Positions 5,399-63,653 of a stretch of DNA of 64,000 nucleotides are shown here, one piece after another (the stretch's first letter is position 1; each line of letters begins with the position of its first letter). The notes under the pieces were generated by a model. The model ran no database searches. It saw only the letters and a list, made by a program, of their open reading frames with translations, and had not been told where the DNA came from. A program made the position numbers and the translations under genes. The stretch comes from Verrucomicrobiales bacterium. Its GTDB lineage: Bacteria; Verrucomicrobiota; Verrucomicrobiia; Verrucomicrobiales; DEV007. Where the stretch lies: NCBI GenBank assembly GCA_028047635.1, contig JAOFXR010000006.1, positions 1 through 64,000 on the forward strand, written 5' to 3'.

Positions 5399-5428
5399 GA
5401 TTTATTCCTGAGATTCTCTTTTGAATTT

Positions 5429-5462: not shown

Positions 5463-5505
5463 GTGCCTTGGCATAGAGGGGCGACTTCCTTAGGGTCAAG
5501 GCCTC

Positions 5506-7813: not shown

Positions 7814-7921
7814 AATCCCGTTTATCACACGCCCCCAGCCCTCTTGCATTCTTTATCCCTTTAAGCTGCAATCCTACAATCGTCATCGTCCCTCCCCCTG
7901 CTGGTCGCAGGGCAAAGCTTA

Positions 7922-7977
7922 GAATCGTCACTCGGAGAGTGACGAGCACGTGCCCATCACTCTCCAAGTGATGATTC
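7922..7977. repeat. 56-base near-perfect palindrome (REP-like)
   Basis: The segment runs from GAATCGTCAC to GTGATGATTC. The two halves pair over almost 28 bases around the central GCACGTGC, with only wobble-type differences (CGTCACTCGGAGAGTGACGAG against the complement of CATCACTCTCCAAGTGATG). Each half also contains its own smaller palindrome (TCACTCGGAGAGTGA and ATCACTCTCCAAGTGAT). It lies between two convergent genes, so it may serve as a bidirectional terminator, but there is no T run and the nested structure is more like a REP/REPIN element. I see only this copy in the window. Confidence 0.7.
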
Positions 7978-8082
7978 AGAGAATCCGGGTTTCATCAGCA
8001 CAACCATCATTAAATCATTCTTAGCGAACTACTTTGCGAATGTCCACGTATCCGGCACCGGAGGATCATAGGTAATAACGCT

Positions 8083-9408
8083 TTAATACGCACCGCAGTG
8101 ATCCAGCACCTCTCTAGTGAGAGCGCGAGACTGCTCCGTGTCCTCGCGTTGCAGTATACTCGTGACGCGATAGGTCATGATTTGCCGATTGTTCACGACG
8201 GGAGACAACTTCGTGAAACCCACCATGGGAAAACGGATTTCACCTTTCACATCGAGAAGCATTCTCTCATTGGAAACCGCGAACCCATTCTCCGGATCGA
8301 CATCCCAACAGAAGAGTGGATTGCGTTTCGTATTCCCTCCTCCGAGATGCCCGCTCATGACGCGAAGAACACCATCAGGACATAGGTGGGAAGGTTTTGG
8401 GCAATAACTCGAAGGAACCTTCGTGTAAGTCGATTCTCCAAATCCGGCAAAGGGATCAGAAGTGCGATACCAGGCAACGCAATACCCGTAAGCACCTTTT
8501 CCCCAGTGGTGCCCACGCGCCCTTGCACCCAGAACCCAATCATCAGGACCAAGACGATTCAACGAACCTTCCATCAGCTTCCCCCGCACGTGCTCATTCA
8601 CCAACTTCCCCGTTCGTACCCACTGGTAGAGTCGAGACGCCTCATCAAAAGCGATCTCCACGGCGGCGATCCCTTTCCCAAAATGATAAGTGTCTACCCA
8701 TCGAGTTTTCCGCTCATCCAAAGCAGTTGCCGGAACGAGCCATTGGTTCACCGAAGTCTGACGAGGTTCGACCGAACAAACAATTCCCCCGCGTTCGAAT
8801 CCCTTTTCCCGCCAGATCGTTATTTCATCATCGAGAAACTCGATATCGCTCTCCTCGTCATTGAGACGAAAATGAATAGACTCTAACTGATTGGCATCGA
8901 CGCGATCAACCACTCCGGTCTGAAGATCTCTCGTCGCCGGAATCACATACCAGGTAGCGAGAAACATATTTTCCGAGGGATAAGCTCGCCCTTTATCATC
9001 GACGACCCCTTTCGGAACACCCGTGACGTTAGGATGTCCGTGGCTCTTAATAAACTTGCGCCCGTCGCGATGAACTTCCCAGTCTTCGCGGTAGCGGGAA
9101 ATAAAGCCCTCCTTTAGAAACGGGCCGTCAGGAGTATCGGATCGAAGCTGGTAAATAATCAAGTGCTCAGAATCCACTCCCGAGAATCCGCGAGTCTGAT
9201 AGATCCAGAGAAAACGCCCGGCACTCAACTGAGCGCAATACGGATGCGAAGGATGAAGCCAATCCTTCTTTTGCTCACCTTCGAGAGTGCAGTCATCAAT
9301 TAATTTGCCCCGGGCCTCAATATTGATCTCGGCGACGAGTAAGCTGGAACTAAAAATGACGAAAAGTGAGAGGCAAAAGAATTTCATCTGGAACCGAATT
9401 CTGCGCAT
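8083..9408 (-). CDS. Secreted protein of unknown function, probable beta-propeller
   Basis: The 441-residue product starts with a signal peptide (about 1-27, ...SSSLLVAEINI). The remainder has repeated aromatic- and Asp-rich strands such as YCAQLSAGRFLWIYQTRG, LIIYQLRSDTPDGPF, YCVAWYRTSDPFAGF and LFCWDVDPENGF, and a GVLRVMSGHLGGGNTKRNPLF segment. This resembles the sialidase/glycosidase-type propellers common in these genomes, but I cannot assign a family. The ATG at 9408 has GGGG eight bases upstream; ATG 9426 and ATG 9387 are alternatives in the same frame. It is convergent with the FGE pair and divergent from the alcohol dehydrogenase gene. No catalytic residues can be named with confidence. 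Confidence 0.7.
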   Translation of the reverse strand: MRRIRFQMKFFCLSLFVIFSSSLLVAEINIEARGKLIDDCTLEGEQKKDWLHPSHPYCAQLSAGRFLWIYQTRGFSGVDSEHLIIYQLRSDTPDGPFLKEGFISRYREDWEVHRDGRKFIKSHGHPNVTGVPKGVVDDKGRAYPSENMFLATWYVIPATRDLQTGVVDRVDANQLESIHFRLNDEESDIEFLDDEITIWREKGFERGGIVCSVEPRQTSVNQWLVPATALDERKTRWVDTYHFGKGIAAVEIAFDEASRLYQWVRTGKLVNEHVRGKLMEGSLNRLGPDDWVLGARARGHHWGKGAYGYCVAWYRTSDPFAGFGESTYTKVPSSYCPKPSHLCPDGVLRVMSGHLGGGNTKRNPLFCWDVDPENGFAVSNERMLLDVKGEIRFPMVGFTKLSPVVNNRQIMTYRVTSILQREDTEQSRALTREVLDHCGAY

Positions 9409-9556
9409 CCTGTCGCCCCAAGTCAAGATGAGCCACCGCCACAGGATTGACCATCATTCATCAAAACCTACAATGATAATCAACCATCGGGTGGCGATTC
9501 ATAAGCTTCGCCTATTCGCCCCAATAAGACGTATTCTACGAAACAAACTCCACCTC

Positions 9557-10576
9557 ATGAGCAACACCACGACCATCAATGCCTTCGCCGCCAATCAAGC
9601 AGGCGGGTCACTCGAGCCCTTTACCTACGAAGTCGGCGCCCTCGAGCCTAATGAAGTCGAGCTTGATGTTCTCTACTGCGGGATCTGCCACAGTGACCTC
9701 AGCATGATCAACAATGAGTGGGGAATGTCAGAGTATCCGCTCGTTGGAGGTCACGAAGTCATAGGAAAGGTCGCCATTGTTGGCGCCGATGTCGAGCACC
9801 TCACCGTCGGCACAGTGGTAGGGCTGGGCTGGCAATCCGCTTATTGCGGGCATTGCGAATCCTGTGATTCCGGCGACGAAAACCTTTGCTCGACCGCTCA
9901 AGGGACCATTGTTGCCCGTCATGGCGGGTTCGCCGACAAAGTGCGTGCGGATGCCGACAGTGTTATTCCGGTTCCGGATGGGATTGATCTCGAATCTGCC
10001 GGGCCACTTCTCTGCGGAGGAATCACCGTGTTCAATCCCCTTGTCCAGTTTGAAGTGAAGTCGACTGATAAGGTCGCCGTCATTGGCATCGGCGGACTTG
10101 GCCACATCGCGCTCAAGTTTCTGAGTAATTGGGGGTGCGAAGTCACCGCTTTTACCTCAAGCGATTCGAAACGCGATGAGGCCCTCAGTATGGGCGCCCA
10201 TAAGACACTGAACTCCCGCGATGAGGCAGAAATTGAGGCAGCAGCGAACCGCTTCGATTTCATCATCTCAACCGTGAACGTGAAACTTGATTGGAATCGT
10301 TACGTCAACACGCTGAGGCCCAAGGGGAGATTGCACTTCGTCGGTGCCGCTCTTGAACCTCTCGACATCGGAGCCATGTCCCTAATCATGGGGCAACGCT
10401 CCATTTCAGGCTCTCCTGTCGGAAGCCCCTCCACCATAGGAAAGATGTTCGACTTCGCCAATCGTCACCAGATCCAGCCTCAGGTTGAGATGTTTCCCAT
10501 GAGCCGCATTAACGAAGCGATTGCCCGGCTTAAATCCGGTGAGGCGCGCTATAGAATCGTGCTGTCGAACGAGTAA
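9557..10576 (+). CDS. Zinc-dependent alcohol dehydrogenase (YahK/cinnamyl-type)
   Basis: A 339-residue medium-chain dehydrogenase/reductase, cytoplasmic, expected to interconvert aldehydes and alcohols with NAD(P)H. Seen in the sequence: catalytic zinc cysteine in LYCGICHSDLS (about 38-44), the GHEVIGKV histidine-glutamate motif (about 62), four structural-zinc cysteines in CGHCESCDSGDENLC (about 97-111), the Rossmann loop GIGGLGHIALKF (about 178-189), and the C-terminal GSPVGSPSTIGKMFDFA segment typical of the YahK/AdhC subgroup. The frame is open upstream to 9287, but that part overlaps the divergent gene; ATG 9557 is where family similarity begins and gives normal length. Physiological substrate cannot be read from context. 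Confidence 0.92.
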   Translation: MSNTTTINAFAANQAGGSLEPFTYEVGALEPNEVELDVLYCGICHSDLSMINNEWGMSEYPLVGGHEVIGKVAIVGADVEHLTVGTVVGLGWQSAYCGHCESCDSGDENLCSTAQGTIVARHGGFADKVRADADSVIPVPDGIDLESAGPLLCGGITVFNPLVQFEVKSTDKVAVIGIGGLGHIALKFLSNWGCEVTAFTSSDSKRDEALSMGAHKTLNSRDEAEIEAAANRFDFIISTVNVKLDWNRYVNTLRPKGRLHFVGAALEPLDIGAMSLIMGQRSISGSPVGSPSTIGKMFDFANRHQIQPQVEMFPMSRINEAIARLKSGEARYRIVLSNE

Positions 10577-10637
10577 CGACACATCCAGAAGTGAAATATT
10601 AAATAGCGGCTTCATTCATCCACGCTATGATCGAACA

Positions 10638-11297
10638 ATGATTTCACCCCTACAGGAAACTAAACATGTCTTTCAAAAGGTTTATGCCCGGGAGCCATTT
10701 CTAAAGTGTCTGTCTTGCGCGATAATCCCCGGCGTGTTGCTGTATACCATAGTGTTTCTCGTATTGAAGTCATTTGGCTTCACTACGATTGAGATCATTC
10801 GAGATCCCGCACAACTGAACGAGTCATCGAGTTTCCTCGGTCTCATCTCGAATCTCGGCAATGCCTTCTGGATTAGTTCCGCTGCAATTGCCTTGTTCAC
10901 CGCGTTTACAAGCGGCTCAAATTTTTCCAAGCCTCGAAGAGAACTCTTGATTCTTGCAGGACTACTGTCGTTGCTTCTCGGAGTGGACGACTTTTTCATG
11001 CTTCATGATCGATACATCAAGCAGAATGTCTGCTATGCCACTTACGCCATCCTCGCGATCACGCTTTTGCTGAGACATTACCGGATGATTTTGAAAAATT
11101 ACGCCACGGCTTTCTTTTTCGCCGGCACCTTCCTCGCCTTGTCTATCCTCGTAGACCTCAGGCAGGGCGCCATTCCCATGAGCTACGACAAACTTCAAAT
11201 TATCGAAGAGGCATTCAAATTCGTCGGTGCATTCGTTTGGCTCTATTTTGTGGGAGTAGTCGCTGCAAAAGAGCCTGAGGAAGAAGAGCCCACCTAA
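10638..11297 (+). CDS. Multi-pass membrane protein of unknown function
   Basis: A 219-residue protein with about five or six hydrophobic segments (LSCAIIPGVLLYTIVFLVL; FWISSAAIALFTAFT; LLILAGLLSLLLG; CYATYAILAITLLL; ATAFFFAGTFLALSILVDL; GAFVWLYFVGVVA) and an acidic tail ending EPEEEEPT. A GVDDFFMLHD segment (about 116-126) sits between helices and carries conserved-looking acidic and His residues, perhaps a metal or substrate site; this is inference. ATG 10638 was chosen over the longer open frame because the extension overlaps the dehydrogenase gene. It follows that gene by 61 bases on the same strand and may be co-transcribed. No family recognised. Confidence 0.75.
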   Translation: MISPLQETKHVFQKVYAREPFLKCLSCAIIPGVLLYTIVFLVLKSFGFTTIEIIRDPAQLNESSSFLGLISNLGNAFWISSAAIALFTAFTSGSNFSKPRRELLILAGLLSLLLGVDDFFMLHDRYIKQNVCYATYAILAITLLLRHYRMILKNYATAFFFAGTFLALSILVDLRQGAIPMSYDKLQIIEEAFKFVGAFVWLYFVGVVAAKEPEEEEPT

Positions 11298-11411
11298 GCC
11301 CCCCCTCGTCGCTTCGGCGGGATAAAGCGGCGGCAATCCCCTTGATGCGGGAAAGCTGAAAGTACCCCTTCAAGCCAGATGATTCTTTCATTTTCTAGCG
11401 GAGAATGAGAT

Positions 11412-14400
11412 GTGGTTTCATTTCGTTCAGACTATCCTTTACCCGGGTTCGCGGTCGGCCTTGCCGTTCTCCTCTTTTGCGATATCGCGAGTTCCGGTGA
11501 GATTGATTACAATCGGGACATCCGCCCTATACTATCCAACAAGTGCTTCCAATGCCACGGGCCTGACGAAGAGACGCTTGAGGCCGATCTCCGGCTTGAC
11601 CTCCCTTCGGACCACTCCGTGGAAGGCAGCGTCATTGTTCCCGGAGCCCCCGAGGCGAGCGAGCTGATCTTTCGCCTCACGACAAACGATTCTTCGGATG
11701 TGATGCCTCCTCCGAAAACGAAGAAGCCCATTACAAAAGAGGAAACGGCACTGCTGAAGCAATGGGTGAAAGAAGGGGCCAAATACCAAAGCCATTGGTC
11801 ATTCGAACCGATTGATTTAGAGGTCACTCCTCCCGTTCTAGCGGACTCCCAATGGCAAAAAAACGGAGTCGATCGTTTTATCCTCGAATCGCTTCAGGAT
11901 AAAAACATTACCCCATCTTCTGAAGCTCAACCGGAAACGCTGGCTCGCCGTATTGCCATCGACCTCACAGGACTGCTACCTTCTCCGGAAGAAGTCGATG
12001 TATTCATAAAAGCCTACCAGACTGATCCAGATCCTGCGGTCAAAGAATTCATCGAATCGCAACTCGCCTCACCTCATTACGGAGAGCGTTGGGGACGACA
12101 CTGGCTCGACCAGGCACGCTATGCAGATTCCAGCGGCTACACAATTGATGGAGAAAGAACGATGTGGCCCTACCGCGATTGGGTCATCAAGGCTCTAAAC
12201 GAGGACCGCCCCTTCGACCAGTTTACGATTGAACAACTTGCCGGTGACCTGCTCGAATCACCGAAAAAGGAACAGCTCATCGCTTCCGCGTTTCATCGAA
12301 ACACGCTCATCAATCAGGAAGGAGGAACCGACGACGAGCAGTTCCGAAATGAAGAGGTCGTCGATCGCGTCAACACCACCGGAGCGGTTTGGCTCGGACT
12401 AACCGTTGGATGTGCTCAATGCCACACCCACAAATTCGATCCCATCACTCACAAGGAATACTTCGAGTTCTTCGCCTTCTTCAATCAAGGCACAGATGTG
12501 AACAACACCGGATCAACCATCCCCGTCGCGGAAGGTGAACTGTTTTCCGAAGAGGTCGATCCGGCGCTCCTCGCTGCTCATGCGAAAGCGAAGGGCCACT
12601 TCGATAAGATCAACGCCCAAACCAAAACGCGGAGAGAAGAGTGGGAAAAGCTCACATTGACGTCACTCAAAGAAAATCCCAGATCTGGCTCTGCCTCTTG
12701 GCTGCCCCAAAAGCCTTATGACTTCGAGGCCGAAGGCGGCGCTCCGCTCAAACTCCTCGAAGATGACTCTCTCCTCGCAGGCATAGGTGCCCCCAAAGAA
12801 GTGTATCACCTAGCACTCCCAGGACAATCGCAGCCCACCGCAGCGATTCGCCTGCGAATTCTCCCGGATCCTTCGCTCCCCAAAAACGGACCTGGGCTCG
12901 CCGGAAACGGAAACATTGTTCTCAACCGCGTCGAGTTCTATCAAAACGACAAACGTATCGCTATTTCCTCGGCCGATCACGATCACGCTCAGCCGGGATT
13001 TTCGGCGGCCTTCCTCATTGATGACAATCCCGCAACGGGCTGGGCCATCAATGTGGGAAAAGGATCCGCCCCCGGCGCGAAGATGAACACCCCTCATGAA
13101 GTCCATTTCATTCTTTCAAAACCTGTTGCCGTAGGAGTCCCGATCAAAGTCGTGATGCGACACGAACAAAACGCAAATTACAACGTAGGTCGATTCGCTT
13201 TTGACACCTCATCCACCGCTCCTCCGTCCCCCGATACAGCAAAGTTTCTTGCCGCTCTTGAAACCGCCGTCGAGAAGCGTGACGCCAATGCCAAGACACT
13301 ATTGGATCAACGGTTCGCGGGAGAAGACACTGACTTACTCGATGCCAAAAGTAAACTCGCCTCCGTCGCGAAAGCGGCCGGACTGGGCAAAGAGGTAAAA
13401 CTCATGGTGATGAAGGACCTCGCGAATTCGCCCCGTGAAACCCACATCCACATTCGAGGCGATTTCCTGAGAAAGGACAAAAAAACCGGAACTCTATTCC
13501 CCGACGTTCCCGCCGTATTCCCCGAACTACCGCTCTTGAAAACGGGCCAGTCACGGAACCGTCTCGACCTTGCAAAGTGGCTCGTGAGTCCAGAGAACCC
13601 GCTCACGGCGCGCGTTACAGTCAATCGCCTCTGGATGAGATATTTCGGAAAAGGCATCGTCGAAACGGAGAACGATTTTGGGACTCAAGGATCGTTTCCG
13701 AGTCACCCGGAACTTCTCGATTGGCTCGCGACTCAATTTGTCGAAGGAGGATGGTCCATGAAAAATCTTCACCGGCTCATTCTCAACTCCGCCACCTACC
13801 GCCAGGCCTCACACGCGCGGCCGGACCTAGTTGAATTGGATCCACTCAATCATCTCCTCGCGAAACAAAATCGTATTCGCTTCGATGCCGAGATCGTTCG
13901 AGACGCAGCTCTCAGCGCGAGCGGTCTTCTTGAACCAAAACTGGGTGGACCAAGCGTGATGCCCCCGCAGCCCGAGGGCATCTATTCATTTACTCAACGC
14001 AAGACAAGTTGGGTCGTTCCTAACAACGAAAACCGGTTCCGGAGAGCGCTCTATGTGAAATTCATACGCAGTGCCCCCTACCCACTTTTTACGACTTTTG
14101 ATTCTCCTGACTTCCAGAGCGTCTGCACCTCCCGCGCACGATCCAATACGCCGCTGCAGTCGCTCACTCTCGCGAATGACGCTGCGCTTTTCGAACTGGC
14201 GCAGGGACTCGCCGAACGACTTTTAGAAGGAATTCCCTCAGAGGGTGATTCATCCGATCTGGAGCGTATCAAGTTGGGTTTCAAACTGTGTTACTCACGC
14301 GAACCCACCGAAAAAGAACAGCAACTTCTCACAACCTTTCGCTCAAATCAGGAAGCCAGCTTTGCCTCGAACGAAGAAGCCGCGCAATCCGTCGCGCCCA

Positions 14401-52739: not shown

Positions 52740-54254
52740 TCACGGCTCGCTGCGTCCGGAATTGATCGCCTTCTGAATCTCTTCGGTGAGAGCTGTCACT
52801 TTAGCGGGCTTCTCTTCGTAAAGGTTCGTCTGCTCGTAAGGATCTTCTGCCAGGTTGTAAAGTTGTCCGGTTTGGCTCAAATCCATCCGCCAGGGAGCCA
52901 TCACGCTTGTTGATTCTACAGCGTCTGAATATTTGTAGAAGCCTCCGGAACTCAGCGTGTCGAAAATCAGCTTCCAGTTGTCCCGTCGGATCGAGAGGAT
53001 GCCAGTGTAGGATTGTGTGATCATTGAGTGGCGAACCGGCTCCGCATTTGCATCCAGAAATTGCGCAGATTGGTCGATCCCATCCTCCGCCGCCCACTCT
53101 GGAAGCGAGGCACCTGCAATCGAGGCCGCGGTTGGCATGAGATCGGTTAGGGACATGAGATTGTCGTTCACTTCATTGGCAGGAACTTTGCCGGGCCAGC
53201 GAACGATGAAAGGAACCCGGGAACCGCCATCCCAAGCGTCGGTTTTATATCCACGAAACGGGCCTGACGCATCGTGGCCATCAGCTAATTCCTTCTTCGT
53301 AAATTTCGGTCCGTTGTCTGAGGTGAAGACAACAAGCGTATTCTCCGAGATTCCAGCGCCATCGAGAAATCTAGAGATTTTGTCGACACTCTCATCCACC
53401 CAAAGACAGCGATCGCCTCTTGGCCCGATGCCTGATTTCCCTACAAAACGCTTGGGGGGTAATACCGCTCCATGCGCTGCGTTCAACGCCAGGTAAACAA
53501 AGAACGGCTCATTCTTCTCGACTGCTGTCTCGATGAACTTCTTCGTTTCCACAACATAGAGATCGTCAACCGTGTCCCGAAACAACGTGGGATCTCGAAT
53601 CAACCCGGTCTTGTCCGGCATGGGCTCGTTGATGATTTGATTCCCACGCATAAAAACAGGAATCCGAGTGCAGTTCGACGGCGTTCCGAAGAAGGTATCG
53701 AATCCGAGCGCGAGCGGCCCGCCTTCGATTGACGCTGTGTGATCGACACGTTCACTAAGCGAAACGAGCGCCGCATTGGCTCCCGGCCCATGGATCTGCG
53801 ACCCAAAATGGTAGTCACCGGGATCGCCTTCTTTTGGCTTCCAACCCAAACCAATGTGCCATTTCCCAAAGGCGGCTGTGGCATACCCCTGCCCCTTCAA
53901 TGCCGAGGCGATCGTGACTCGAGTTGGCGGAATCAGAGGCTTTGCATACCCCGGAAGCACGCCTTCACGGACATAGGTTCGCCAGCAATAACGGCCTGTC
54001 AGCAACGAGTAACGAGTTGGCGTGCAAACCGAATGAGGTGCGTGTGCATTGGTGAAACGCATGCCTTCAGAAGCAAACTTGTCGATCGCCGGGGTGATCA
54101 CTTTTCCTTTTTCAGGCACGTTGCAACTCACATCCCCCCAACCGAGATCATCCGCGAGGATGACGATGATGTTGGGCTTAGTGCCCGTCTCTGCCTGCAA
54201 GATTCCCGCTCCGATAGCAGCAAACAGAATAATTGTAGAAAAAGTTTTTATCAT
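52740..54254 (-). CDS. Secreted sulfatase (formylglycine type)
   Basis: A 504-residue exported sulfatase. Signal peptide about 1-21 (...GAGILQAETG). Motifs: NIIVILADDLGWGDVSCNVPEKGK, HSVCTPTRYSLLTGRYCWRTYVREG with CxPxR, GKWHIGLGW, VVFTSDNGPKFTKKE (metal Asp-Asn, Gly then Pro instead of the usual Gly). C-terminal part has QLYNLAEDPYEQTNLYEEKP. Nearest paralog in the window is the one at 20115, with the same TPTRYxxLTGRYxWRT core, suggesting the same sulfatase subgroup. Same strand as the propeller gene downstream. Confidence 0.94.
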   Translation of the reverse strand: MIKTFSTIILFAAIGAGILQAETGTKPNIIVILADDLGWGDVSCNVPEKGKVITPAIDKFASEGMRFTNAHAPHSVCTPTRYSLLTGRYCWRTYVREGVLPGYAKPLIPPTRVTIASALKGQGYATAAFGKWHIGLGWKPKEGDPGDYHFGSQIHGPGANAALVSLSERVDHTASIEGGPLALGFDTFFGTPSNCTRIPVFMRGNQIINEPMPDKTGLIRDPTLFRDTVDDLYVVETKKFIETAVEKNEPFFVYLALNAAHGAVLPPKRFVGKSGIGPRGDRCLWVDESVDKISRFLDGAGISENTLVVFTSDNGPKFTKKELADGHDASGPFRGYKTDAWDGGSRVPFIVRWPGKVPANEVNDNLMSLTDLMPTAASIAGASLPEWAAEDGIDQSAQFLDANAEPVRHSMITQSYTGILSIRRDNWKLIFDTLSSGGFYKYSDAVESTSVMAPWRMDLSQTGQLYNLAEDPYEQTNLYEEKPAKVTALTEEIQKAINSGRSEP

Positions 54255-54398: not shown

Positions 54399-55721
54399 CT
54401 AAGCCAATAATTCTCTAAGCGCCCCTTTTCCCGTGTCGTATTTTTCGTAGGCGCCGCCTAGATTGAAATGCTCAACCGGGTGACCCGCAGCTTCAAGTAA
54501 AGTGGCATAGAAGCTGTTGATCGGGCGATCGTTTTCGATCTTCATGTAATGACCTTCCTGCATCGTTCCTCCAAAATTACCCAGAGTCATAAAGGGCCAA
54601 CTTGCGCCATTGGTGTGCTGTTTGTCAGCATTGTTACTGGTATAAACAATCAAGGTGTTGTCCATCATAGTGCCATTACCTTCCGGCGTTTCCTCAAGGG
54701 CCTGGACCAGTTTTGACAACATTCGCATGTTATACTGTCGAATCCGTGTCCAGATATCGGATGTCATCGATAAGTGGCCCAATGAATGCCCCCTTTGGTC
54801 AATGCCTAAGCCCTCCCATGAACCATAAAATTCGCCGCAGCCTGAATTAATTGTGGCCACATTAGTGAGGCCCGCTTTCAGTGCGGCAATCGTCAAATCA
54901 AGCATCGCGTCATGCCAATCTGTTTCATGTTGGGGAGCTGAGTATTTTTCGTCAAATTCAGGCATGTAGGTTTTGAGACTGTCTGACATGGAGCTGACAC
55001 TGTCCCGAAATGTGCTGATGTCGCTGAAGGGATCTAATTTCTTCCGGCCACTCTCTGGTAACGTTCCAGCGCTTTCGGCTGAGGTTTTGGCGATGAAATC
55101 CAACATCTTGGAATTTTCATCGTAAGTCTTTCGTTGCTTGCCAGTGGCGACAGATCCAAACATGAGCCGATATAGAAATGTCGGGTCACAGATCATCGAC
55201 GCTTTATCCCCGGGGCCCCAGGCAGAGGTTGCATGGAAAATGGGAACTTGTTTCATCCGATTCAGCGATTCCATGCCGACACTCAAAAGAGGCACGGGCG
55301 CCTTGGGCAGAACCTTGCTTAGCGCGCAATCAATTGTGATGTCAAAAGGGGTGGACTTATTTCTTCTGTATCCACCGAGGCATCCGTAGTAAGCGCTGTG
55401 AGCCGGGCTGGTGTGCCTGCCGTGCAAGCCCTGGATTATCGTGAGTTTGTCACGGTGAGGGGCCAAGGGATCAATGAAAACCGGGAGGTCTTCTGATCTA
55501 AGCGATTTACCGGATGTTATTCCTTTCACTGCGCAATTAGCGTCACTGAATCCCTGGGATTGCAGGAAAAACACAACTCTCTTGGGCTGCTTGCCGCCTT
55601 GGGGCGGACTCACCTTTTTGTCCTCTGCCAATGCAGTGTAAAAGGGAGTTGCCGCACTCGCTCCGGCTGCCGCACCGAATTTTTTAATGATGTCTCGTCT
55701 GTTTAGCGTATTTATTTTCAT
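54399..55721 (-). CDS. DUF1552 protein, partner of DUF1592 cytochrome
   Basis: A 440-residue exported protein. The N-terminus LNRRDIIKKFGAAAGASAA is a Tat-type signal. Segments of the DUF1552 family: RVVFFLQSQGFSDANC, GLHGRHTSPAHSAYYGCLGG, STPFDITIDCAL, PVPLLSVGMESLNRM, TLIVYTSNNADKQHTN and NSFYATLLEAAGHPVEHFN. Function unknown; the family nearly always sits next to a DUF1592-type cytochrome gene in PVC bacteria. Start and the preceding stop overlap by one base (TAATG), so the pair is coupled. The codon use of this pair reads as more A/T-rich than its neighbours, which I did not quantify. Confidence 0.92.
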   Translation of the reverse strand: MKINTLNRRDIIKKFGAAAGASAATPFYTALAEDKKVSPPQGGKQPKRVVFFLQSQGFSDANCAVKGITSGKSLRSEDLPVFIDPLAPHRDKLTIIQGLHGRHTSPAHSAYYGCLGGYRRNKSTPFDITIDCALSKVLPKAPVPLLSVGMESLNRMKQVPIFHATSAWGPGDKASMICDPTFLYRLMFGSVATGKQRKTYDENSKMLDFIAKTSAESAGTLPESGRKKLDPFSDISTFRDSVSSMSDSLKTYMPEFDEKYSAPQHETDWHDAMLDLTIAALKAGLTNVATINSGCGEFYGSWEGLGIDQRGHSLGHLSMTSDIWTRIRQYNMRMLSKLVQALEETPEGNGTMMDNTLIVYTSNNADKQHTNGASWPFMTLGNFGGTMQEGHYMKIENDRPINSFYATLLEAAGHPVEHFNLGGAYEKYDTGKGALRELLA

Positions 55722-58156
55722 TAGTTTTGTACGGGTTTGCGATATAGAAATGAATCTGAAGTGAGCAGTGAAATAATGAGGGCCTTCATGCTCCCCCCAT
55801 TATCTTGATAAGCCTTATGTGCGGCCTGGAGGGTTGGAGCATCGTTGATCGTTTCATTGCGGCCCATCCAGTAACGGAAGGCATGCCTCACAAAAACTTG
55901 TTCCACATGCTCACTATTGGCGAGGCGATGGATGAGTTCAAAAGCATCTTCGACCTTGCCATCTAGCTCTGGAACACCACTGGCGATAATTTCCCCGCTG
56001 GCATCAACAGGATTGCCATTTTCATCGACCTGTTTTCCATCTTTGGTCTTTCGAAATTTCCCGACATGATTGAACATTTCAAAAGGAAGCCCCAGAGGAT
56101 CCATTTTCTGATGACAACGCCAGCATTCTTTCGCCCGAGTCACCCGCATGCGATGACGTAATGATTCTTTAGGTTCATCAGGTAAAACCGCATCGACTGT
56201 GATCGGCACTTCAGGCACGCCCCCACCCAATAACCGTTCTCTGATCCATCGTCCCCGAAAGACCGCGTGGTTATCCATGGCGTCCGAATGGGCAATCAAC
56301 CAACTGGGCTGTGTGAGTATCCCGCAACGTTCGGTGGCAGGAAAGGTCAACATTTCCCAGGGCGAAGGCCCCGTAACACTCGTAGACACCCAGTATTCAC
56401 GGATAAATATCGGTCGCTCGATATCTTCAATTCCAGTTTCCGATTTAGTCCATCCATCTTTTTTTCGATACTTAGAGACTGTGTTGTCGTAGAAAGAAAT
56501 CGATTTTGCATCGTTAAACGTATTAAAATAATTGTCTTCTTTGATGGTAGGCCTAACTCTTACCACACTCTTGTCCGTTGTTAAAAGTTCGCGCAAAACA
56601 TCACGGTCTGATTCAAGAATATATTCGATCAATCGATCGGTTTCAGATACCAAATAGTTCATTTGGAGATTGTAATAATTGCCATCTTCAAGAACCCCAA
56701 CTGCCTTCAGCGATTGGGTGTCCTTGCAAATCGAAGGAGCGCGGTGGTAATCAAAGTATTCCTGGAAAAACCTCAAAATGCGCGGTTTGCGAATCGAACC
56801 GTCATCCATGATCCGCGTCACCTCGCGAAGAACATCCTCGCGTGTCTTTAGTTCACCTCCCTTGAGAGCCGCCTGCAATTGAGGATCAGGCGACATGTAA
56901 GTCAACGCACCCGCAATCGAATTCGCCAACTCGTCTCCAGCAAGCATCACCCGGCCGTGTGGATCGGGCTCACCACTACCAAATTCATAGCGGTACAACG
57001 CTTCGGGGTGCAGAAAGATGGGAGCACAACCAACAATAAGCCCCTCCACTTTTCCTAATGCTTTCACTTCATTTTGAATAAATGAAATCTGCTCATTCAA
57101 CTCCTTAACCCGGGGATGTCGTCCTGTGAGGGCCTTAAAAAGGAAGGGCACCAGTTTTTCCAGTTGAGCTTGGGTGGGTAACACCTCGGTTTCCATGATG
57201 TCCATAAAGGGACTGTACTTTCGTTGATAACCTTTAATGTACAAATGGGTGCTTTCCCGATCGGCGGAAGTCTGTTTTTTGCCATCTACGATCTTGGTAC
57301 TAGTACGGCTGAGTTTGTATTTTTCCGGATCCCTCCACATGTAATCCGGTACGTCCGAGCCGACAATCATGTGCTTTAAAACTGCTTTCGCACCGGTCAC
57401 TAGCAATTGCATCTCATCACTGGTCACTTCGTACATCACGGCAAAATCCTGCAGCCCCCTCTCCTGGCTCAAACTTTGAACCGGTCTGACAGAAGGAAAA
57501 TCGCCCGTCCAACCTGAACCATTACGGATTCCCATGACTTGATCAGATCCCAATGATAATCTCAAATCCCCCGTGTCGGTGTTAACTTTCGAAACCATCA
57601 CTGGGTCACCACTGGCTAATTGCCCTGGATATTTAGGATTGTATTCTGGCGTGTTGTGAACCAGTTCGTTGAGTTTGACAAGATAAGCGGCGGGGTGAAT
57701 ACGCCACATCCTCGACGGGGTAGAAGGTGGCTCAGCGACTTTGACCGCGTCGGAAAAGAGCAGCTCGTGATCCACATAATTCCCCTTGGTGGGTAACAGA
57801 TTTTCATGAAACCCTCCCTGGTTTTTCGAAGCTTCCTGTAAGCCCGCTATCACACCGTTTACAAAGTGCATACGGTCCAGGTGAACGGGTTGTTCTTTCT
57901 TCGTGGGTGGCATTTCTTTGAGCGACACCTGCTCCCAGACTTTCTGCCATTCAACCGTATTCGCGGCCGTCACTGATGTGAGAGGCTCGATATTGAATCC
58001 TCCCTTTTCGGTGTCACTGTCATGGCATTCGATACAATGTTTCTCAATAAATGCCTGTTGAGAAACCTCGCCAGCCAGCGCGGGTCCACCATAACTCGTT
58101 GTCGCCGAAATCATTAGCAACGCGCAAATTACATGAATTAGAAATGGTCTTAACAT
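55721..58156 (-). CDS. DUF1592/DUF1588/DUF1585-type exported cytochrome
   Basis: An 811-residue exported protein from this start. Signal peptide (about 1-29, ...SATTSYGGPALAG), planctomycete-type cytochrome with CIECHDSDTEKGGFN, DUF1587-like region (AAYLVKLNELVHNTPEYNP), DUF1595/DUF1592 (ILRFFQEYFDYHRAPSICKD), DUF1588 (TERCGILTQPSWLIAHSDAMDNHAVFRGRWIRE... and a second heme-type motif CWRCHQKMDPLGLPFE), DUF1585 (VEQVFVRHAFRYWMGRNETI). Activity not established; likely redox. The frame is open 27 codons further to an ATG at 58237, and that extension (MTEFDEEEALISF...) is homologous to the start of the sigma factor at 63325 (MEDLNEEEALKRI...). The start used in vivo is therefore uncertain; the signal peptide favours 58156. 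Confidence 0.9.
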   Translation of the reverse strand: MLRPFLIHVICALLMISATTSYGGPALAGEVSQQAFIEKHCIECHDSDTEKGGFNIEPLTSVTAANTVEWQKVWEQVSLKEMPPTKKEQPVHLDRMHFVNGVIAGLQEASKNQGGFHENLLPTKGNYVDHELLFSDAVKVAEPPSTPSRMWRIHPAAYLVKLNELVHNTPEYNPKYPGQLASGDPVMVSKVNTDTGDLRLSLGSDQVMGIRNGSGWTGDFPSVRPVQSLSQERGLQDFAVMYEVTSDEMQLLVTGAKAVLKHMIVGSDVPDYMWRDPEKYKLSRTSTKIVDGKKQTSADRESTHLYIKGYQRKYSPFMDIMETEVLPTQAQLEKLVPFLFKALTGRHPRVKELNEQISFIQNEVKALGKVEGLIVGCAPIFLHPEALYRYEFGSGEPDPHGRVMLAGDELANSIAGALTYMSPDPQLQAALKGGELKTREDVLREVTRIMDDGSIRKPRILRFFQEYFDYHRAPSICKDTQSLKAVGVLEDGNYYNLQMNYLVSETDRLIEYILESDRDVLRELLTTDKSVVRVRPTIKEDNYFNTFNDAKSISFYDNTVSKYRKKDGWTKSETGIEDIERPIFIREYWVSTSVTGPSPWEMLTFPATERCGILTQPSWLIAHSDAMDNHAVFRGRWIRERLLGGGVPEVPITVDAVLPDEPKESLRHRMRVTRAKECWRCHQKMDPLGLPFEMFNHVGKFRKTKDGKQVDENGNPVDASGEIIASGVPELDGKVEDAFELIHRLANSEHVEQVFVRHAFRYWMGRNETINDAPTLQAAHKAYQDNGGSMKALIISLLTSDSFLYRKPVQN

Positions 58157-58237
58157 AATCTGATATTTCCGATAGGAGTTTACTGATACTCGATCAATAA
58201 AAGAAATGAGGGCTTCTTCTTCGTCAAATTCGGTCAT

Positions 58238-58315
58238 CAGTAGTTACGTTGCCGTAAAAGAAGATGTTCTGACATAATTCTGCAGAAAAATGCCGTTTTT
58301 TAAGATTTATGATTC
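58238..58315 (-). promoter_or_regulatory. Duplicated ECF-type promoter and leader upstream of DUF1592
   Basis: On the minus strand, TGTCAGAACATCTT (from about 58274), then GGCAACGTAACTACTG directly before an ATG at 58237. The same elements stand before the sigma gene at 63326-63360. GAACAT and CGTAAC are 15 bases apart in both, consistent with an ECF-type -35/-10 pair. Expected start of transcription would be close to the conserved ATG (leaderless or nearly so). Inference, from the duplication and known ECF promoter geometry. Confidence 0.6.
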
Positions 58316-58390
58316 CAGTTACAAAAAACGGATATAGAAGCCACGTCATCTGACATCAAAGTTGCCTGCAGTTTACCCACCATTCAAAAT

Positions 58391-61114
58391 TTACTTCAAC
58401 ACTGCGGCAGGTTTCTTCACCGCCTTCTTTTTGTCCTTACCTTTTTTGAGATTACGCTTTTTCGGTTTTACCATCATGTAGGCGATAAGATCCGCCATCT
58501 CTTCAGGCTTCTGAACGAGACTGGCCGGCATCATGGACTGTTCACTGGCCTCCTGCTTGGCAATGTGGCTTTTCACCAACTCCGTGGTCGCACCGGTAAT
58601 GCCGCGAAGATTGATCATACCCGCTTCAGCCCCGGGCTCGACAAATCCTGTGTGAACCGCGCCGTCATTCATCGTCACGGTATTGGGATGGAAGTTCGGC
58701 GACACGGTAAGGTTCGGGACAAGAATCGACGCAGCCAGATAACTGGGTGGAAAACGGCTTCCCACATCAACCAAAGTCGGTCCAATCGCGCCGCCAGCTC
58801 CCGTGTCAGGTGCCAAGTGACAAGCAACGCAGCCGCGTTGAGTAAAAAGTTCTTTGCCTTTTGCTGCATCGCCTTTGGGAGCCGTCGCGGCATCCCAATC
58901 AATTTTTCGAAACGCTTCGGGGATTTCTGTGCCGGTGGAGAGCTTGGCACCTTTGAGCGCAAGGAGGGCTTTTTTCAGATCCGCTTTATTCGCCTGACCA
59001 GCAGCCATGGAGAGTGCGGTTTCGCTGTTTCCGAGAACGGCGATCGCTTTGGCATCCGCTCGATCATCTTTTAGAAAAAAGAGCCCGGTTGCGGCGGTGT
59101 TGGCAACCGTTTTGTCGTCATCTGCCAGAGCATTCAGCAAGCGGTCAAACTCGACCTGGTTGGCTTTCTTAACTTCAGCATCCCTCCACCAATCGCTCAT
59201 GCGAAAGGTTCCAATGGGCGCTCCCAAATCGCTGAGATCAATTGGCCCTTCAGGATGCAGCAGCTTCATCATTTTTTCGACTGCGACCGTGCCAGAGACA
59301 GGTAATTGAGTGACGGTTTCAGCCCGCTGCCACACTTTAAAAACCGTGGCGAGAGTAGCGGCGAGACGTTGATCCGGGGATCCATCCGCGAGGGCTGCCA
59401 GCTGATCATTCGGAGCCTGCCGGGCGAGAAGAATCGCTGCAGATTGCCTGACAAAGGGATCTTCGTGTGCTGCGAGCACGGCTACCGAGGCAGGGATTAC
59501 TCGCTTTGCGGCGTGAAGAAATTCGAGAAGACCAACCTGCAATTTGGCATCGTCCCTCTTTGCTGCGGCGGCATTGATCATCTCATCCGAAAGGCTCGGG
59601 AACTTATCGGGATATGTCGCTGCGGCTCGCCATGCCAGAGAGGCCGCGCGTCCTTCGCCCTGAGCGAGTGAGATGATTCGCTCAATTGAATCATCATCGC
59701 CATGAGCAGCCGCAAGAAAAACGAGACTTGAGAACGCCGGTGAGTCAGGGGTTGTCTTGCCAAAAGCATCGCCAGCTTCAGCAAGCAGATCGCCTCCCTG
59801 ACGAAGAATTTCTCGGTGCGCTTTTGCCCGGATCTGGATAGATTCAGAAAGCAAATCGACCATCGATTTGTCAGAATATTTAAAGGTGGAAGTTGCCTGC
59901 TGCTTGCGAGGGGAGATCAGCAACAAATCCGTCTGCGACTTGGGCGATGGCTCGTTGCCCATCATATAGCAAACTGAGACAATGAGGTTCCCCTCATTAG
60001 TAGGCATCGCCGAAACCGGACGCCGGTCTCCCGCAACTTGCAGCAGCGGCTTGGCTTTGGATTGAAACCCCGCCCCGTCGGCGTGGAGCGGGTATGAAGT
60101 GACATTTCGTCCGCCCCAATTCGCGACAAACAGTGAGCCCTGATAGTCTTTCCCAAAGCTCGTATGATCGTAATATCCCTGGCCCACCGGCACATCGAGG
60201 GTCCGGTTTGCACTGGGAATCATATCGCGCCGCGCCGGATTTCGAGTCGCATCCCAACCCCGCGCCCAACCACTCCACGAGTGCTGTGGAACCGAGAGCA
60301 GTCGACCTGGCGATGCTGTGGACCCTTCCTGATCGTTGTCATTGCTGAATAGATTCCAGTCTCGATCAAAGGAAATGCCACAAGGGTTGCGAAGGCCACT
60401 CGCATAGACAGAGAAATCGTAGGAGTCCAGATTCAGCCGCATCACCGCGCCGACTCCGGCATAGGGAACTTTGCGCTTTTCTGGCCCAACATACCACGTC
60501 CACAGCCAGAGATGATCCGGACGAGTCTTGTCCAAATGTACGCCGGGGTGCGGGTCACCCATGCAGATCAGCAGATCCCCATTGGGCGCGAACTCGATGC
60601 CATGCAGGCCCTGGTGGTGATGCCCTAGCGGATTTCCCCAGAGAATTTTATCCGCCTTGATATCGGCGCGCTTTTCAACCGCTCCCGGCAACCGGTAAAG
60701 AGCTGTATTCGTCAGCACAAGGAGATCGTCCCCATAGGTTTCGACATCGTAGACCCAGGTATCAGCCGGAAACCGGTATATTTCCTGACGAGGCTGAAAT
60801 CCTCCATCAGCAGTCCGTTCATAAACAAAAAGCCCTTCGCGTCCGCCCAGAACCAAGCTCCCACTCAAATCCATATCGTGGCTGAGAAAAAACTCATCCG
60901 GGTGGGTGTCAATCTGCTCAACTTTCAGGTTCGAGTCGGTCAGAGAAACTCCGTCGACACCTGACTCGACTCCTTTAGGCAGAGCCACCGTTTGAGCGCC
61001 GGAAATCACGCTGACCCAAATTGCAAGAAGAGCGACTAGGAAACCAGACTGAACCCGGAAGAAACGATGAGTAGAAGACGACGTTTTGTCGAAAAGATGT
61101 TTGGTGAGTTTCAT
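58391..61114 (-). CDS. PVC-type membrane-bound dehydrogenase with HEAT repeats and C-terminal heme motif
   Basis: A 907-residue exported protein of the Pirellula/Verrucomicrobium-type dehydrogenase group. Signal peptide (about 15-40), a six-bladed propeller N-terminal domain (about 50-420) with GLHGIEFAPNGDLLICMGDPHPGVHLD, GVGAVMRLNLDSYDFSVYASGLRNPCGISFDRDWNLFSNDNDQEGS, HEAT-like repeats (about 430-720), and a C-terminal cytochrome-c-like region with CVACH (near residue 759) and the GAGGAIGPTLVDVGSRFPPSYL segment. The Lys-rich tail MMVKPKKRNLKKGKDKKKAVKK is unusual and may bind acidic polymers. Follows the FecR-LamG gene, so may belong to the sigma-factor transcript. Confidence 0.9.
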   Translation of the reverse strand: MKLTKHLFDKTSSSTHRFFRVQSGFLVALLAIWVSVISGAQTVALPKGVESGVDGVSLTDSNLKVEQIDTHPDEFFLSHDMDLSGSLVLGGREGLFVYERTADGGFQPRQEIYRFPADTWVYDVETYGDDLLVLTNTALYRLPGAVEKRADIKADKILWGNPLGHHHQGLHGIEFAPNGDLLICMGDPHPGVHLDKTRPDHLWLWTWYVGPEKRKVPYAGVGAVMRLNLDSYDFSVYASGLRNPCGISFDRDWNLFSNDNDQEGSTASPGRLLSVPQHSWSGWARGWDATRNPARRDMIPSANRTLDVPVGQGYYDHTSFGKDYQGSLFVANWGGRNVTSYPLHADGAGFQSKAKPLLQVAGDRRPVSAMPTNEGNLIVSVCYMMGNEPSPKSQTDLLLISPRKQQATSTFKYSDKSMVDLLSESIQIRAKAHREILRQGGDLLAEAGDAFGKTTPDSPAFSSLVFLAAAHGDDDSIERIISLAQGEGRAASLAWRAAATYPDKFPSLSDEMINAAAAKRDDAKLQVGLLEFLHAAKRVIPASVAVLAAHEDPFVRQSAAILLARQAPNDQLAALADGSPDQRLAATLATVFKVWQRAETVTQLPVSGTVAVEKMMKLLHPEGPIDLSDLGAPIGTFRMSDWWRDAEVKKANQVEFDRLLNALADDDKTVANTAATGLFFLKDDRADAKAIAVLGNSETALSMAAGQANKADLKKALLALKGAKLSTGTEIPEAFRKIDWDAATAPKGDAAKGKELFTQRGCVACHLAPDTGAGGAIGPTLVDVGSRFPPSYLAASILVPNLTVSPNFHPNTVTMNDGAVHTGFVEPGAEAGMINLRGITGATTELVKSHIAKQEASEQSMMPASLVQKPEEMADLIAYMMVKPKKRNLKKGKDKKKAVKKPAAVLK

Positions 61115-61160: not shown

Positions 61161-62795
61161 TTACGATCCTATCTTACCGAATGACGGGGATATCATTTGC
61201 GGCTCAGGAGGTAGGTTCTCTTTATATAACCGCCACACCTGAACCGGCGTGAGAACCCCTTCAAAAATGTAGAGCTCATCAAGATCACCCCGAAATCCGG
61301 AGAAGTAAGGATTCGGTATTTTTTCATTTTCGGCAGAAAATTTCTTTATCGACTTGGCACTAGTGAGATGATTGCCTACCGCTAAAGGGTGACTTTCCTC
61401 ACCAGTGCTGGTCTCCACTTTTGCATGCTGAAAGCCGCTCGCATACTCAAGGCGACCGTCGACATAATGACGGATATGGGTGGCTACATCAGCATCCTCG
61501 CCACCAATAAATATACTGACGACATGATGCCACGTTCCGTCGCGTAAATCCCGAGTACCATTGACCCAGCCCGGCCCAAACTCGGTTCTTATCGCCCCGG
61601 CAACTGAGCCGGGCGACAAAGGCTGTTTCCATCTCCAGGGTTTCACCTGTGGATTCCACGACACTTGCCATTTCCGCGACTTCAAGTTACGGCCTCTTGA
61701 CTTCTGCAATCCCCAGCCGGCCCAGCCATAAGCTTCTTTGGGTCCTGCATCGCGGGGGATCCTAACCCAGGCGGCCACCGTCCGCGGACGACTGCCTGAA
61801 ACGCCTCGATAAGAAGACTCTAGGAATTCGCCGGTACCGGAAAATCTCAATGCCTGTCCGCCGCGGGCTCCTTCGATGCGATCCGGGACCCTACCCGGCA
61901 GTCCGGGTTTCAGGCCATATTCAGCAGCACGATCCGAGCCCGATGCGGAAAAATGATCTCCCTCTGTTTCTTCAAAACTCCAATGATAGAAAACGACCGA
62001 AGCCTGGTTCTCAAACTCATCGACGATAGGATTTGCGGTTTCCGACGAGAACGCCTTCATCGCACCTGAACTCATCGCAACGCTTTGCTTTTCTACCAAC
62101 TCCCGGACTTCGATTCCGGCAGTTGCGCGGACCCGTCCTTTCACGACCTGAACGGTCGACTCCCCATTACTAACCTCGATCCGGAATTCAGTTCCTAAAT
62201 CGACAATTTTCCCTTCGGGAGTCAAAACGGTGAACCCTTGACCCGATTCTTCGAAGCGCGCCTGCAGATCACCGCTTTCCAGCCGAATCAGTTTGTCATC
62301 GATGATTTCAAACACCGACGGACCTTCAATCCTTGCGGTGCCGCCAACATCGAGCGCCATAATCACTTCTCCCGTTTCGAGGTGGTAAGTTCCTGGCATC
62401 AGCCATTCCCCGATCTCAGCAACCCGGTTTCGCTCCAAACCCCAGCGTCCATTTTCCTCGTGAATCACCCGCGCAACCGCCAGCTCGATGCAATCGCCCG
62501 CCGTCGTCGACCCTGAGTTTATTCCAGCCAACCACCAGCCTGCTGCCAAAATCGCAAGAGTAGCGGCTACTCCCACGATAGCGGGAAGTCTCCGCCGCTG
62601 ACGGCTCACTTTCGGGAAACTGACTAAGTTTCCACCGGCCAGTTCTTCCTGCAGTCGACCGTGGATTTCCGCCGACGCGACAAATTCTTCGCACAGCTCA
62701 GGTTCACTCATCAAAGCTCCCTGTAACTCCCGCAGCTCCTCATCAGAAAGTTGTCCGTCGAAGTAGCGGATCATTAATTCATTTGGCGATTTCAT
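61161..62795 (-). CDS. FecR-like membrane regulator with C-terminal LamG domain
   Basis: A 544-residue protein: short cytoplasmic domain (about 1-65) with MIRYFDGQLSDEELRELQGAL, one membrane helix (about 70-90, LPAIVGVAATLAILAAGWWLA), a FecR domain (about 150-240) with FEIIDDKLIRLESGDLQARFEE and VDLGTEFRIEVSNGESTVQVVKGRV, and a LamG/concanavalin-like domain (about 270-535) with VVFYHWSFEETEGDHF, PRTVAAWVRIPRDAGP, GTWHHVVSIFIGGED. The start overlaps the sigma-factor stop by four bases (ATGA). FecR proteins transmit signals from an outer partner to the cognate ECF sigma; here the sensor end is a LamG domain, suggesting direct sensing of a polysaccharide. Inference. Confidence 0.9.
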   Translation of the reverse strand: MKSPNELMIRYFDGQLSDEELRELQGALMSEPELCEEFVASAEIHGRLQEELAGGNLVSFPKVSRQRRRLPAIVGVAATLAILAAGWWLAGINSGSTTAGDCIELAVARVIHEENGRWGLERNRVAEIGEWLMPGTYHLETGEVIMALDVGGTARIEGPSVFEIIDDKLIRLESGDLQARFEESGQGFTVLTPEGKIVDLGTEFRIEVSNGESTVQVVKGRVRATAGIEVRELVEKQSVAMSSGAMKAFSSETANPIVDEFENQASVVFYHWSFEETEGDHFSASGSDRAAEYGLKPGLPGRVPDRIEGARGGQALRFSGTGEFLESSYRGVSGSRPRTVAAWVRIPRDAGPKEAYGWAGWGLQKSRGRNLKSRKWQVSWNPQVKPWRWKQPLSPGSVAGAIRTEFGPGWVNGTRDLRDGTWHHVVSIFIGGEDADVATHIRHYVDGRLEYASGFQHAKVETSTGEESHPLAVGNHLTSAKSIKKFSAENEKIPNPYFSGFRGDLDELYIFEGVLTPVQVWRLYKENLPPEPQMISPSFGKIGS

Positions 62796-63325
62796 ACAGG
62801 CTCCCCTTCCCCGGCTATCTGCCCCTCGATGCACCCTTTCAACTTCACCCGAAGGCGGTGAAAAATCTGCTGCAGAGAAGCTTCGCTGCGATCCTCCTCA
62901 TCCGCGAGAGCCCTGATTGTCTGACGATCTCCGTAGTAGGCACCGAGTCGGCTGCGATCCTCGCCCTTAAGCTTGCCGAGGCAATTTCGCAGAGCATCCT
63001 GGCGGTCATTCCCCCCGCTAAACCCAACTTGTTTGTCCCACTCCTGAGCAAGGTGTTCGAGGACCGGGCCATCGCACAGAACGAGGCGATCGCGACCGAG
63101 CTTGCGCAGGCACTGTTTTGCCTGATTCTTGGCGACCCCATACACATATGCCTCGAAGTTTTCAACCCCGCCTGCCTTGACCGCTTTCCAAACCCCAAGC
63201 ACCACCTCCTGAAACACCGCTTCCACATCAGCCTCCGGCGGCAGGAGCATGACCAAAAACGAGAAAAGAGACGACCTCATTTCCATGATTCGCTTGAGCG
63301 CTTCTTCTTCGTTCAGATCCTCCAT
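62792..63325 (-). CDS. ECF sigma factor, Rhodopirellula/Verrucomicrobium type
   Basis: A 177-residue extracytoplasmic-function sigma factor of the group described as Rhodopirellula/Verrucomicrobium family. Region 2: MLLPPEADVEAVFQEVVLGVWKAVKAGGVENFEAYVYGVAKNQAKQCLRK (about 28-77). Region 4: LKGEDRSRLGAYYGDRQTIRALADEEDRSEASLQQIFHRLRVKLKGCIEG (about 116-165), with the helix-turn-helix QTIRALADEE. Start at ATG 63325 is conserved with the copy at 58237. No anti-sigma in the form of a zinc-binding ASD is seen; the FecR-LamG protein is the likely partner. Autoregulation is implied by the upstream elements. Confidence 0.92.
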   Translation of the reverse strand: MEDLNEEEALKRIMEMRSSLFSFLVMLLPPEADVEAVFQEVVLGVWKAVKAGGVENFEAYVYGVAKNQAKQCLRKLGRDRLVLCDGPVLEHLAQEWDKQVGFSGGNDRQDALRNCLGKLKGEDRSRLGAYYGDRQTIRALADEEDRSEASLQQIFHRLRVKLKGCIEGQIAGEGEPV

Positions 63326-63410
63326 CAGTAGTTATGTTGCCGCCCAAAAAGATGTTCTGACAGAATTATGTGAAAAATATTCCATTTTTGCGATTTACGG
63401 ACAGAGTCGC
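63326..63410 (-). promoter_or_regulatory. ECF-type promoter and leader of the sigma-factor operon
   Basis: On the minus strand: CTGTCAGAACATCTT (to about 63351) and GGCAACATAACTACTG directly before the sigma ATG at 63325. GAACAT (63352-63357) and CATAAC (63331-63336) are 15 bases apart. The upstream part (CGTAAATCGCAAAAATGGAA) also matches the DUF1592 leader. The likely transcription start is at or near the ATG, so a leaderless mRNA is possible. Based on pattern only. Confidence 0.6.
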
Positions 63411-63653
63411 CGAATTTTCAAACTGCTTCGGTTTGAATTAAGCCTTCTTTCCGAAAGATTAACTGGCCCCCGGTAATTCAAGCGAAAGGGTGTGAGCTAT
63501 GGCGCAGCAGCCTGATTCTTCACATCCTTCTTTTTCTTCTTACTCTTTTTTGGAACTAGCCCTCGTCGGCTTCAGCAATACCAGTGCCGACCTATTAAAC
63601 TGAACAAAATATCCTGCGCCAATCCAGAACGTCTTTGCCATCCTCTATGGAAG

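Follow-up and report, generated by a model that had tools for sequence, protein, structure and literature searches.

The locus and its genes

The window, i.e., the whole stretch of 64,000 nucleotides analyzed here (contig JAOFXR010000006.1 of a Verrucomicrobiales bacterium, positions 1 to 64,000), carries toward its right end a series of genes that are all read from the minus strand. An ECF-type sigma factor gene and a FecR-domain gene are followed by a gene for a heme-binding protein and afterward by a DUF1592-DUF1552 gene pair. The sulfatase gene downstream of this pair possibly belongs to the same operon. The features are listed below in the direction of reading; positions relative to a gene are counted from the A of its ATG, and wS and wD denote the copies of one sequence block that lie before the sigma gene and the DUF1592 gene, respectively.

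63497..63578, minus strand: 3' end of a decayed cytochrome gene upstream of the sigma gene, recognized by alignment with the cytochrome 3' end and spacer of the sister genome G005 and with the end of the window's own cytochrome gene
63295..63415, minus strand: sigma 5' block, copy wS, from about -90 to +30 (profile match 63296-63401, 93.9 bits)
63352..63357, minus strand: putative -35 box GAACAT of wS (5 of 6 positions invariant in six copies)
63331..63336, minus strand: putative -10 box CATAAC of wS (3 of 6 positions invariant in six copies)
62792..63325, minus strand: ECF-type sigma factor gene, 177 aa (PF04542, TIGR02937)
61161..62795, minus strand: FecR-LamG gene, putative anti-sigma (PF04773 FecR, PF13385), its start overlapping the sigma stop
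58391..61114, minus strand: PVC-type heme-binding CxxCH protein, 907 aa (PF00034; TIGR02603 above its cut-off, TIGR02604 below)
58207..58315, minus strand: copied sigma 5' block before the DUF1592 gene, copy wD (profile match 58208-58311, 97 bits)
58264..58269, minus strand: putative -35 box GAACAT of wD
58243..58248, minus strand: putative -10 box CGTAAC of wD
58184..58207, minus strand: interval with the junction between sigma-derived sequence and the DUF1592 gene's own 5' part (sigma similarity stops at +31; similarity to the homolog in genome G041 starts at 58184)
55721..58237, minus strand: PSCyt1/DUF1592/DUF1588/DUF1585 gene, 838 aa counted from the copied ATG
54399..55721, minus strand: DUF1552 gene (PF07586)
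52740..54254, minus strand: sulfatase gene (PF00884)

The sigma factor belongs to the ECF type, as it matches PF04542 (region 2) at 32.8 bits against a cut-off of 24; it also matches TIGR02937 (sigma70-ECF) at 49.0 bits against 42.9, over residues 21-164. Its best match is TIGR02989, the Rhodopirellula/Verrucomicrobium sigma subfamily, of which profile positions 2-158 of 158 are covered, yet at 101.2 bits it stays below the cut-off of 124.55 and is not a filed member. A sequence search of the PDB with this sigma factor returned no matches. The adjoining gene encodes a FecR domain (PF04773, 30.5 bits against a cut-off of 24), and the FecR-LamG protein is the putative anti-sigma of the window sigma.

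One 5' region before two genes

An earlier note on this DNA had claimed that the regions upstream of the DUF1592 and sigma genes match over roughly 100 bases, and they do. The local alignment of wD with wS covers about -70 to +31, and 76 of its 96 columns agree (counted on the printed alignment); it scores 83, whereas 1000 dinucleotide-preserving shuffles average 16.8 and reach 28 at most, so the likeness is not due to chance. Both copies have GAACAT at -32..-27 and C(A/G)TAAC at -11..-6, and the 15 bases that the note had counted between these elements are indeed kept in each. Also common to them are the ATG and the stretch GAAGAAGAAGC(G/C)CTC, which codes for EEEAL. In wD the block comprises an upstream tract, the boxes, the ATG and ten codons (MTEFDEEEAL), and the reading frame from the copied ATG stays open into the DUF1592 gene, as had been stated. 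In the 838 aa read from this ATG, a signal-peptide-like stretch begins near Met28 (58156), a candidate inner start.

The description of wD as a duplicated regulatory region needs qualification. Its link to this sigma factor stands, but wD is not simply a copy of the present 5' end of the window sigma: it opens with the codons MTEF, as do two copies in the sister genome G005.

Further copies in a sister genome

Three further loci in G005 begin with the sigma 5' end, which brings along 10 to about 30 sigma codons: the DUF1592 ortholog, another DUF1552-DUF1592 operon, and the gene for a 1240-aa protein with Ig domains. Counting the one before the sigma gene itself, a near-identical, promoter-sized sequence is present there in four copies, before sigma, DUF1592, DUF1552 and Ig-domain genes, which is the pattern looked for in a mobile promoter.

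The first copy (rS) fronts an intact sigma gene, after which come FecR-LamG, DUF1552, DUF1592 and a sulfatase-like gene (the last recognized by eye). Just upstream of rS, on the opposite strand of contig C3 (L094, minus-strand 5330-11679), lies a second sigma-FecR-like-DUF1552-DUF1592 set. The second copy (rE) is found behind an intact cytochrome gene and consists of a stub of about 30 sigma codons, a 53-aa ORF with a 7-base insertion relative to sigma; it lies 187 bases upstream of the earliest possible start of a DUF1552 ORF, which is followed by a DUF1592 gene. The third (rD) stands behind a sulfatase gene and before the DUF1592 ortholog, and its boxes are changed to GAACCT and CATATC (vs. 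GAACAT and C(G/A)TAAC). The fourth (rF), on contig C184, has about 22 sigma codons in an open frame into the 1240-aa protein, which contains Ig-like and cadherin-like domains.

The DUF1592 gene behind rD is split over contigs C250 and C3, whose joint we infer; about 50 identical bases lie on both sides of the split. The start of C250 (L093 1-47) and the end of C3 (L094) carry the same adapter-like sequence, which we take to be the Nextera adapter, and these shared ends are an assembly artefact.

The sigma-derived stubs read KRIMKMRSSLFSF in rE and KRITEMGSSLFSW in rF, next to KRIMEMRSSLFSF in the sigma factor itself. Because rE and rF continue into sigma region 2 codons, the sigma gene must be the source of the copied piece. 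All four non-sigma copies face a downstream gene on the same strand, in three cases with a frame that is open into that gene; their cargo is a DUF1592/DUF1552 operon (three of the four) or the Ig-like-domain protein (one). The ATG is kept in all six copies of the two genomes, and the CTG before it is invariant too. That the 5' end of the sigma gene has been copied before other gene groups is near certain. The basis is two genomes, both of them MAGs, with rF on a separate contig for which mis-binning is possible.

Order of events and a more distant relative

The copies wD and rD have their junction with the DUF1592 gene in common (312 of 353 bases identical, from -78 to +277). This shared junction, together with the MTEF codons, dates the wD copy to before the two genomes split. 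The decayed cytochrome end and the sigma 5' region of the window, on the other hand, form a single alignment with rE (258 of 310 aligned bases, -253 to +85). Since wS and rE have the upstream cytochrome 3' end and spacer in common, we infer from the sequences that their location is the older sigma site, and we order the events accordingly. At this site, the window has a decayed cytochrome gene and an intact sigma gene; in G005 the cytochrome gene is intact, the sigma gene is reduced to a stub that precedes another operon, and an intact sigma-FecR pair is located elsewhere. Duplication of a whole operon was considered as the source of all copies and rejected, the DUF1552/DUF1592 sets differing in gene order and, by eye, in sequence.

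Genome G041, from another genus, provides a DUF1592 homolog that is 85% identical from residue 16 onward, among the matches listed. Both the locus comparison and a wider-filter profile search of G041 found this homolog to be without the block, and no close sigma was among the matches listed for that genome. At about the same point, the homolog (L095 7721-8000) is joined to a different 5' end (MSYKNLQLAFMSIMAIFSPTVRAQ...), which looks like an independent replacement of its start. Ahead of the gene, at about 7581-7630 of L095, there is a palindromic stretch of about 48 bases that recurs across G041: an L095 query gave at least 40 matches in this genome, nearly all of them on the palindrome, which appears REP-like or terminator-like. 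Searches of the G041 locus (L095) and of the C250 locus of G005 (L093) against Rfam yielded nothing.

Rarity of the block and its co-occurrence with the sigma factor

The pattern GAACAT-N12..20-TAACTACTG has two matches in the window, where none is expected, and the looser GAACAT-N10..24-TAACTACTG has the same number in the whole 3.18 Mb assembly, with no third site. A fixed-length pattern with 3 mismatches allowed adds two poor sites elsewhere in the assembly. The MAG from which the window comes (G000) measures 3,177,459 bases and is 63% complete, so further copies may be missing.

Among 386 genomes (the own genome included), GAACAT-N13..21-TAACTNCTGATG occurs only in the own genome (two matches) and in G005 (two), and the strict motif has no match in viral contigs. 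A sequence-only profile was made from the six copies, whose scores of 93.9-103.2 bits are thus to be expected; across 104 genomes, nothing beyond these six exceeds 18.9 bits, the 20 matches at 14.3-18.9 bits (in 16 genomes) being treated as noise. With a wider filter, G000, G005 and G041 show nothing else above 15.2 bits, and six matches at 12.6-15.2 bits were likewise set aside as noise.

The sigma factor itself is just as restricted. Among the matches listed for 95 genomes, the own one included, a close ortholog is found in G005 only (90% identity), and the best sigma match in any other genome is 35% identical. A promoter that is common to a sigma gene and its targets and confined to genomes with that sigma is what one looks for in a regulon, and this is the distribution found here: the motif is present in 2 of 386 genomes, the profile in the same 2 of 104, and the close sigma, among the matches listed, in these same two of 95. 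The earlier note had called for a genome scan, and in the assembly, in the 386 genomes scanned by motif and in the 104 scanned by profile, the motif does not stand before many unrelated genes without the sigma.

As a control, 19 other sigma 5' ends of the own MAG were searched for a second copy in that MAG; at BLAST sensitivity there was none, each query matching only itself. The queries, 19 of the 23 sigma matches, spanned -60..+60 around chosen starts (one was shortened by a contig end). They left out the window sigma and L007-L009, included L029 despite its score below the Pfam cut-off, and would miss promoters more than 60 bases upstream or diverged copies. In G005 the same queries gave two matches, one at the start of a sigma gene (C21) and the other on C263.

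Conservation of the block

From -39 to -1, 29 of the 39 bases are invariant in the six copies, namely 8 of the 12 box positions and 21 of the 27 others. The boxes are thus not conserved above their surroundings in these six copies, and the emphasis that had been placed on them was not borne out.

Between the two genomes, identity over -40..-1 amounts to 34/40 for wD-rD and 33/40 for wS-rS, at a synonymous-site difference (pS) of 0.28-0.46 in five gene pairs (dS 0.36-0.71). If the DUF1592 pair sets the neutral identity (0.62), P is 0.0014 and 0.0044, respectively; if the slowest pair, DUF1552, does so (0.716), P rises to 0.038 and 0.084, and the conservation is weak. The promoter part of wD-rD (34/40) does not exceed the tract upstream in similarity (33/38), and it falls below the first 84 coding bases (79/84, i.e., five differences). 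In seven paralog pairs, which are non-independent, the promoter is more alike than the adjoining sigma-derived codons each time (7/7; p 0.047-0.54), whereas the two ortholog pairs point in the opposite direction, with the sigma-derived codons more alike than the promoter (p 0.088 and 0.31). What is conserved is the block in its entirety.

A general ECF promoter signature was also considered and rejected, since only 6 of 51 sigma loci (22 own and 29 from relatives) had a TGTC..AA(C/T)-like box at a distance of 26-44 bases upstream of a possible start, one of the six being the G005 ortholog itself. Two ECF sigma genes of the own MAG, L019 (C13) and L027 (C35), have TCTGTCCAA(C/T)TTTT 32-33 bases before the ATG in a layout like that of the block; their transcription possibly starts at the ATG too.

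A possible regulon made by copying

In the two sister genomes, copying has placed the 5' end of the ECF sigma gene (upstream tract, -35 and -10 boxes, ATG, plus 10 to about 30 codons) before separate genes and operons, the recipients encoding exported PVC-type cytochrome, DUF1552 and related proteins. We propose that the copies serve as promoters for the same sigma factor, which would then transcribe the recipients along with its own sigma-FecR operon, while the FecR-LamG protein, as anti-sigma, would control both. Judged from sequence, this sigma factor would also be autoregulated. That the copying of an ECF promoter together with its start codon has produced a small regulon read by the same sigma is a reading to which we give slightly better than even odds. 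We would call control by this sigma fairly probable were the boxes better conserved than neighbouring bases.

The layout is ECF-like, with boxes 15 bases apart and a -10 box that ends 6 bases before the A of the ATG. Six bases is about the usual distance from a -10 box to the transcription start. With the -10 box in this position, the probable start of transcription is the ATG itself or a base close to it, which would leave the mRNAs with little or no leader; the invariance of the ATG and of the CTG ahead of it fits such a start. Leaderless mRNAs proper we consider an even call. No GGAGG-like site was seen by eye before the ATG of wS or wD. The available part of PMC3160421 contains no mention of Verrucomicrobia, Planctomycetes, Chlamydiae or Akkermansia.

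The copied ATG and first codons would hand the recipient a working translation start, of which the leftover sigma codons are the presumed scar. The first codons common to the copies may themselves be a passive residue of copying. In G041 the codon matching Met28 is ATA, so the DUF1592 gene of that genome needs an upstream start.

A wider reading would have the sigma factor build its regulon by broadcasting its own 5' end, i.e., promoter, leaderless ATG and first codons as one cassette, so that each target gains both sigma control and a translation start; rE would be the older sigma site turned into such a start for cargo genes. We regard this extension as tentative and rather unlikely.

Alternative readings

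The main rival holds that the copies are recombination debris: a rearranged cytochrome-sigma-FecR region would have left truncated sigma 5' ends without present regulatory use. The unit has been rearranged, given that the cytochrome end preceding the window sigma is decayed and that wD and rE follow intact cytochrome genes; moreover, rE is a sigma stub with an insertion, rD is altered in both boxes, and the boxes are not conserved above their surroundings. However, rD and rF lie behind unrelated genes, each of the four non-sigma copies faces a same-strand gene and keeps the ATG, and the identity retained across a dS of 0.36-0.71 exceeds most neutral expectations, though not the one from the slowest pair. 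On balance we hold this account to be unlikely, yet a serious competitor.

More doubtful still is that some other sigma factor or regulator reads the copies as working promoters, the gene of this sigma having merely donated the piece. Autoregulation is an assumption, the own MAG has 23 sigma70 region 2 matches, and a copied promoter works whoever reads it. Confinement of the block to genomes with this sigma (among the matches listed) and the ECF-like layout make such an outside reader improbable.

There is very little to recommend the view that a small element, mobile or repeated, inserted itself in front of sigma and other genes alike: there are six copies, one of them on another contig, and their left edges lie at about -71 to -110 in most pairwise alignments, but the right edges vary from +31 to about +90, two copies hold sigma region 2 codons and hence came out of the sigma gene, and no common terminal repeats were seen by eye. 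Least probable of all, and rejected, is a coding role for the conserved stretch, namely a short peptide upstream ((M/L)SEHLLLRQRNY-like) with a TGA that overlaps the ATG (TGATG) and would couple translation. Its frame is open and its stop overlaps the ATG in 6/6 copies, but 8 of the 10 variable positions fall on codon positions 1 or 2, and only 3/6 copies begin the peptide with ATG, the others with CTG.

Significance and relation to known systems

The gain of targets by a sigma factor is mostly deduced from short motifs that could arise independently, whereas here leftover codons show descent from the sigma 5' end. Two sister genomes present different states of the process, namely an open-frame fusion, a truncated sigma stub and an intact sigma elsewhere. 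Other genomes with many ECF sigmas can be screened for the signature, the first codons of a sigma factor ahead of non-sigma genes, and the block offers a testable regulatory link for DUF1592/DUF1552 operons.

No account of a sigma gene 5' end copied before other operons was found in the literature searched, which was covered as titles and starts of abstracts and included few subscription papers. The nearest concepts are promoter propagation, or mobile promoters, and horizontal regulatory transfer. In promoter propagation, a promoter-sized sequence is repeated before non-homologous genes of one genome; it has reportedly been described in prokaryotes by Matus-Garcia (2012), Nijveen (2012) and van Passel (2014). 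The concept and its references also appear in the available part of PMC9208149. Our case resembles it in that a promoter-sized sequence recurs before non-homologous genes in one genome, and differs in the unit copied, here the 5' end of a regulator gene including start codon and coding sequence, and in the recipients, which are candidate targets. In horizontal regulatory transfer, said to have been described by Oren (2014), regulatory DNA moves apart from the gene it once served. This likewise applies here, but the copies lie within one genome before different genes, unlike a swap of promoters of the same gene between strains.

As far as the available part of PMC11111574 goes, a spontaneous tandem duplication can bring a promoter to a silent gene and thereby activate it. 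Such promoter capture is a possible route for wD; it differs, in that part of the source, in being a laboratory construct under selection, with no sigma gene and no dispersed copies. FecIR-like systems, in which an autoregulated ECF sigma is paired with a FecR anti-sigma, are matched by the overlap of the sigma gene with a FecR-domain gene and by the ECF-like boxes before the sigma gene; here, on the other hand, the FecR protein has a LamG domain, and the candidate targets have a copied 5' end in common. Relative to promoter propagation, what sets the case apart is that a regulator gene has had its own 5' end copied, and that the copies stand before probable targets of that regulator.
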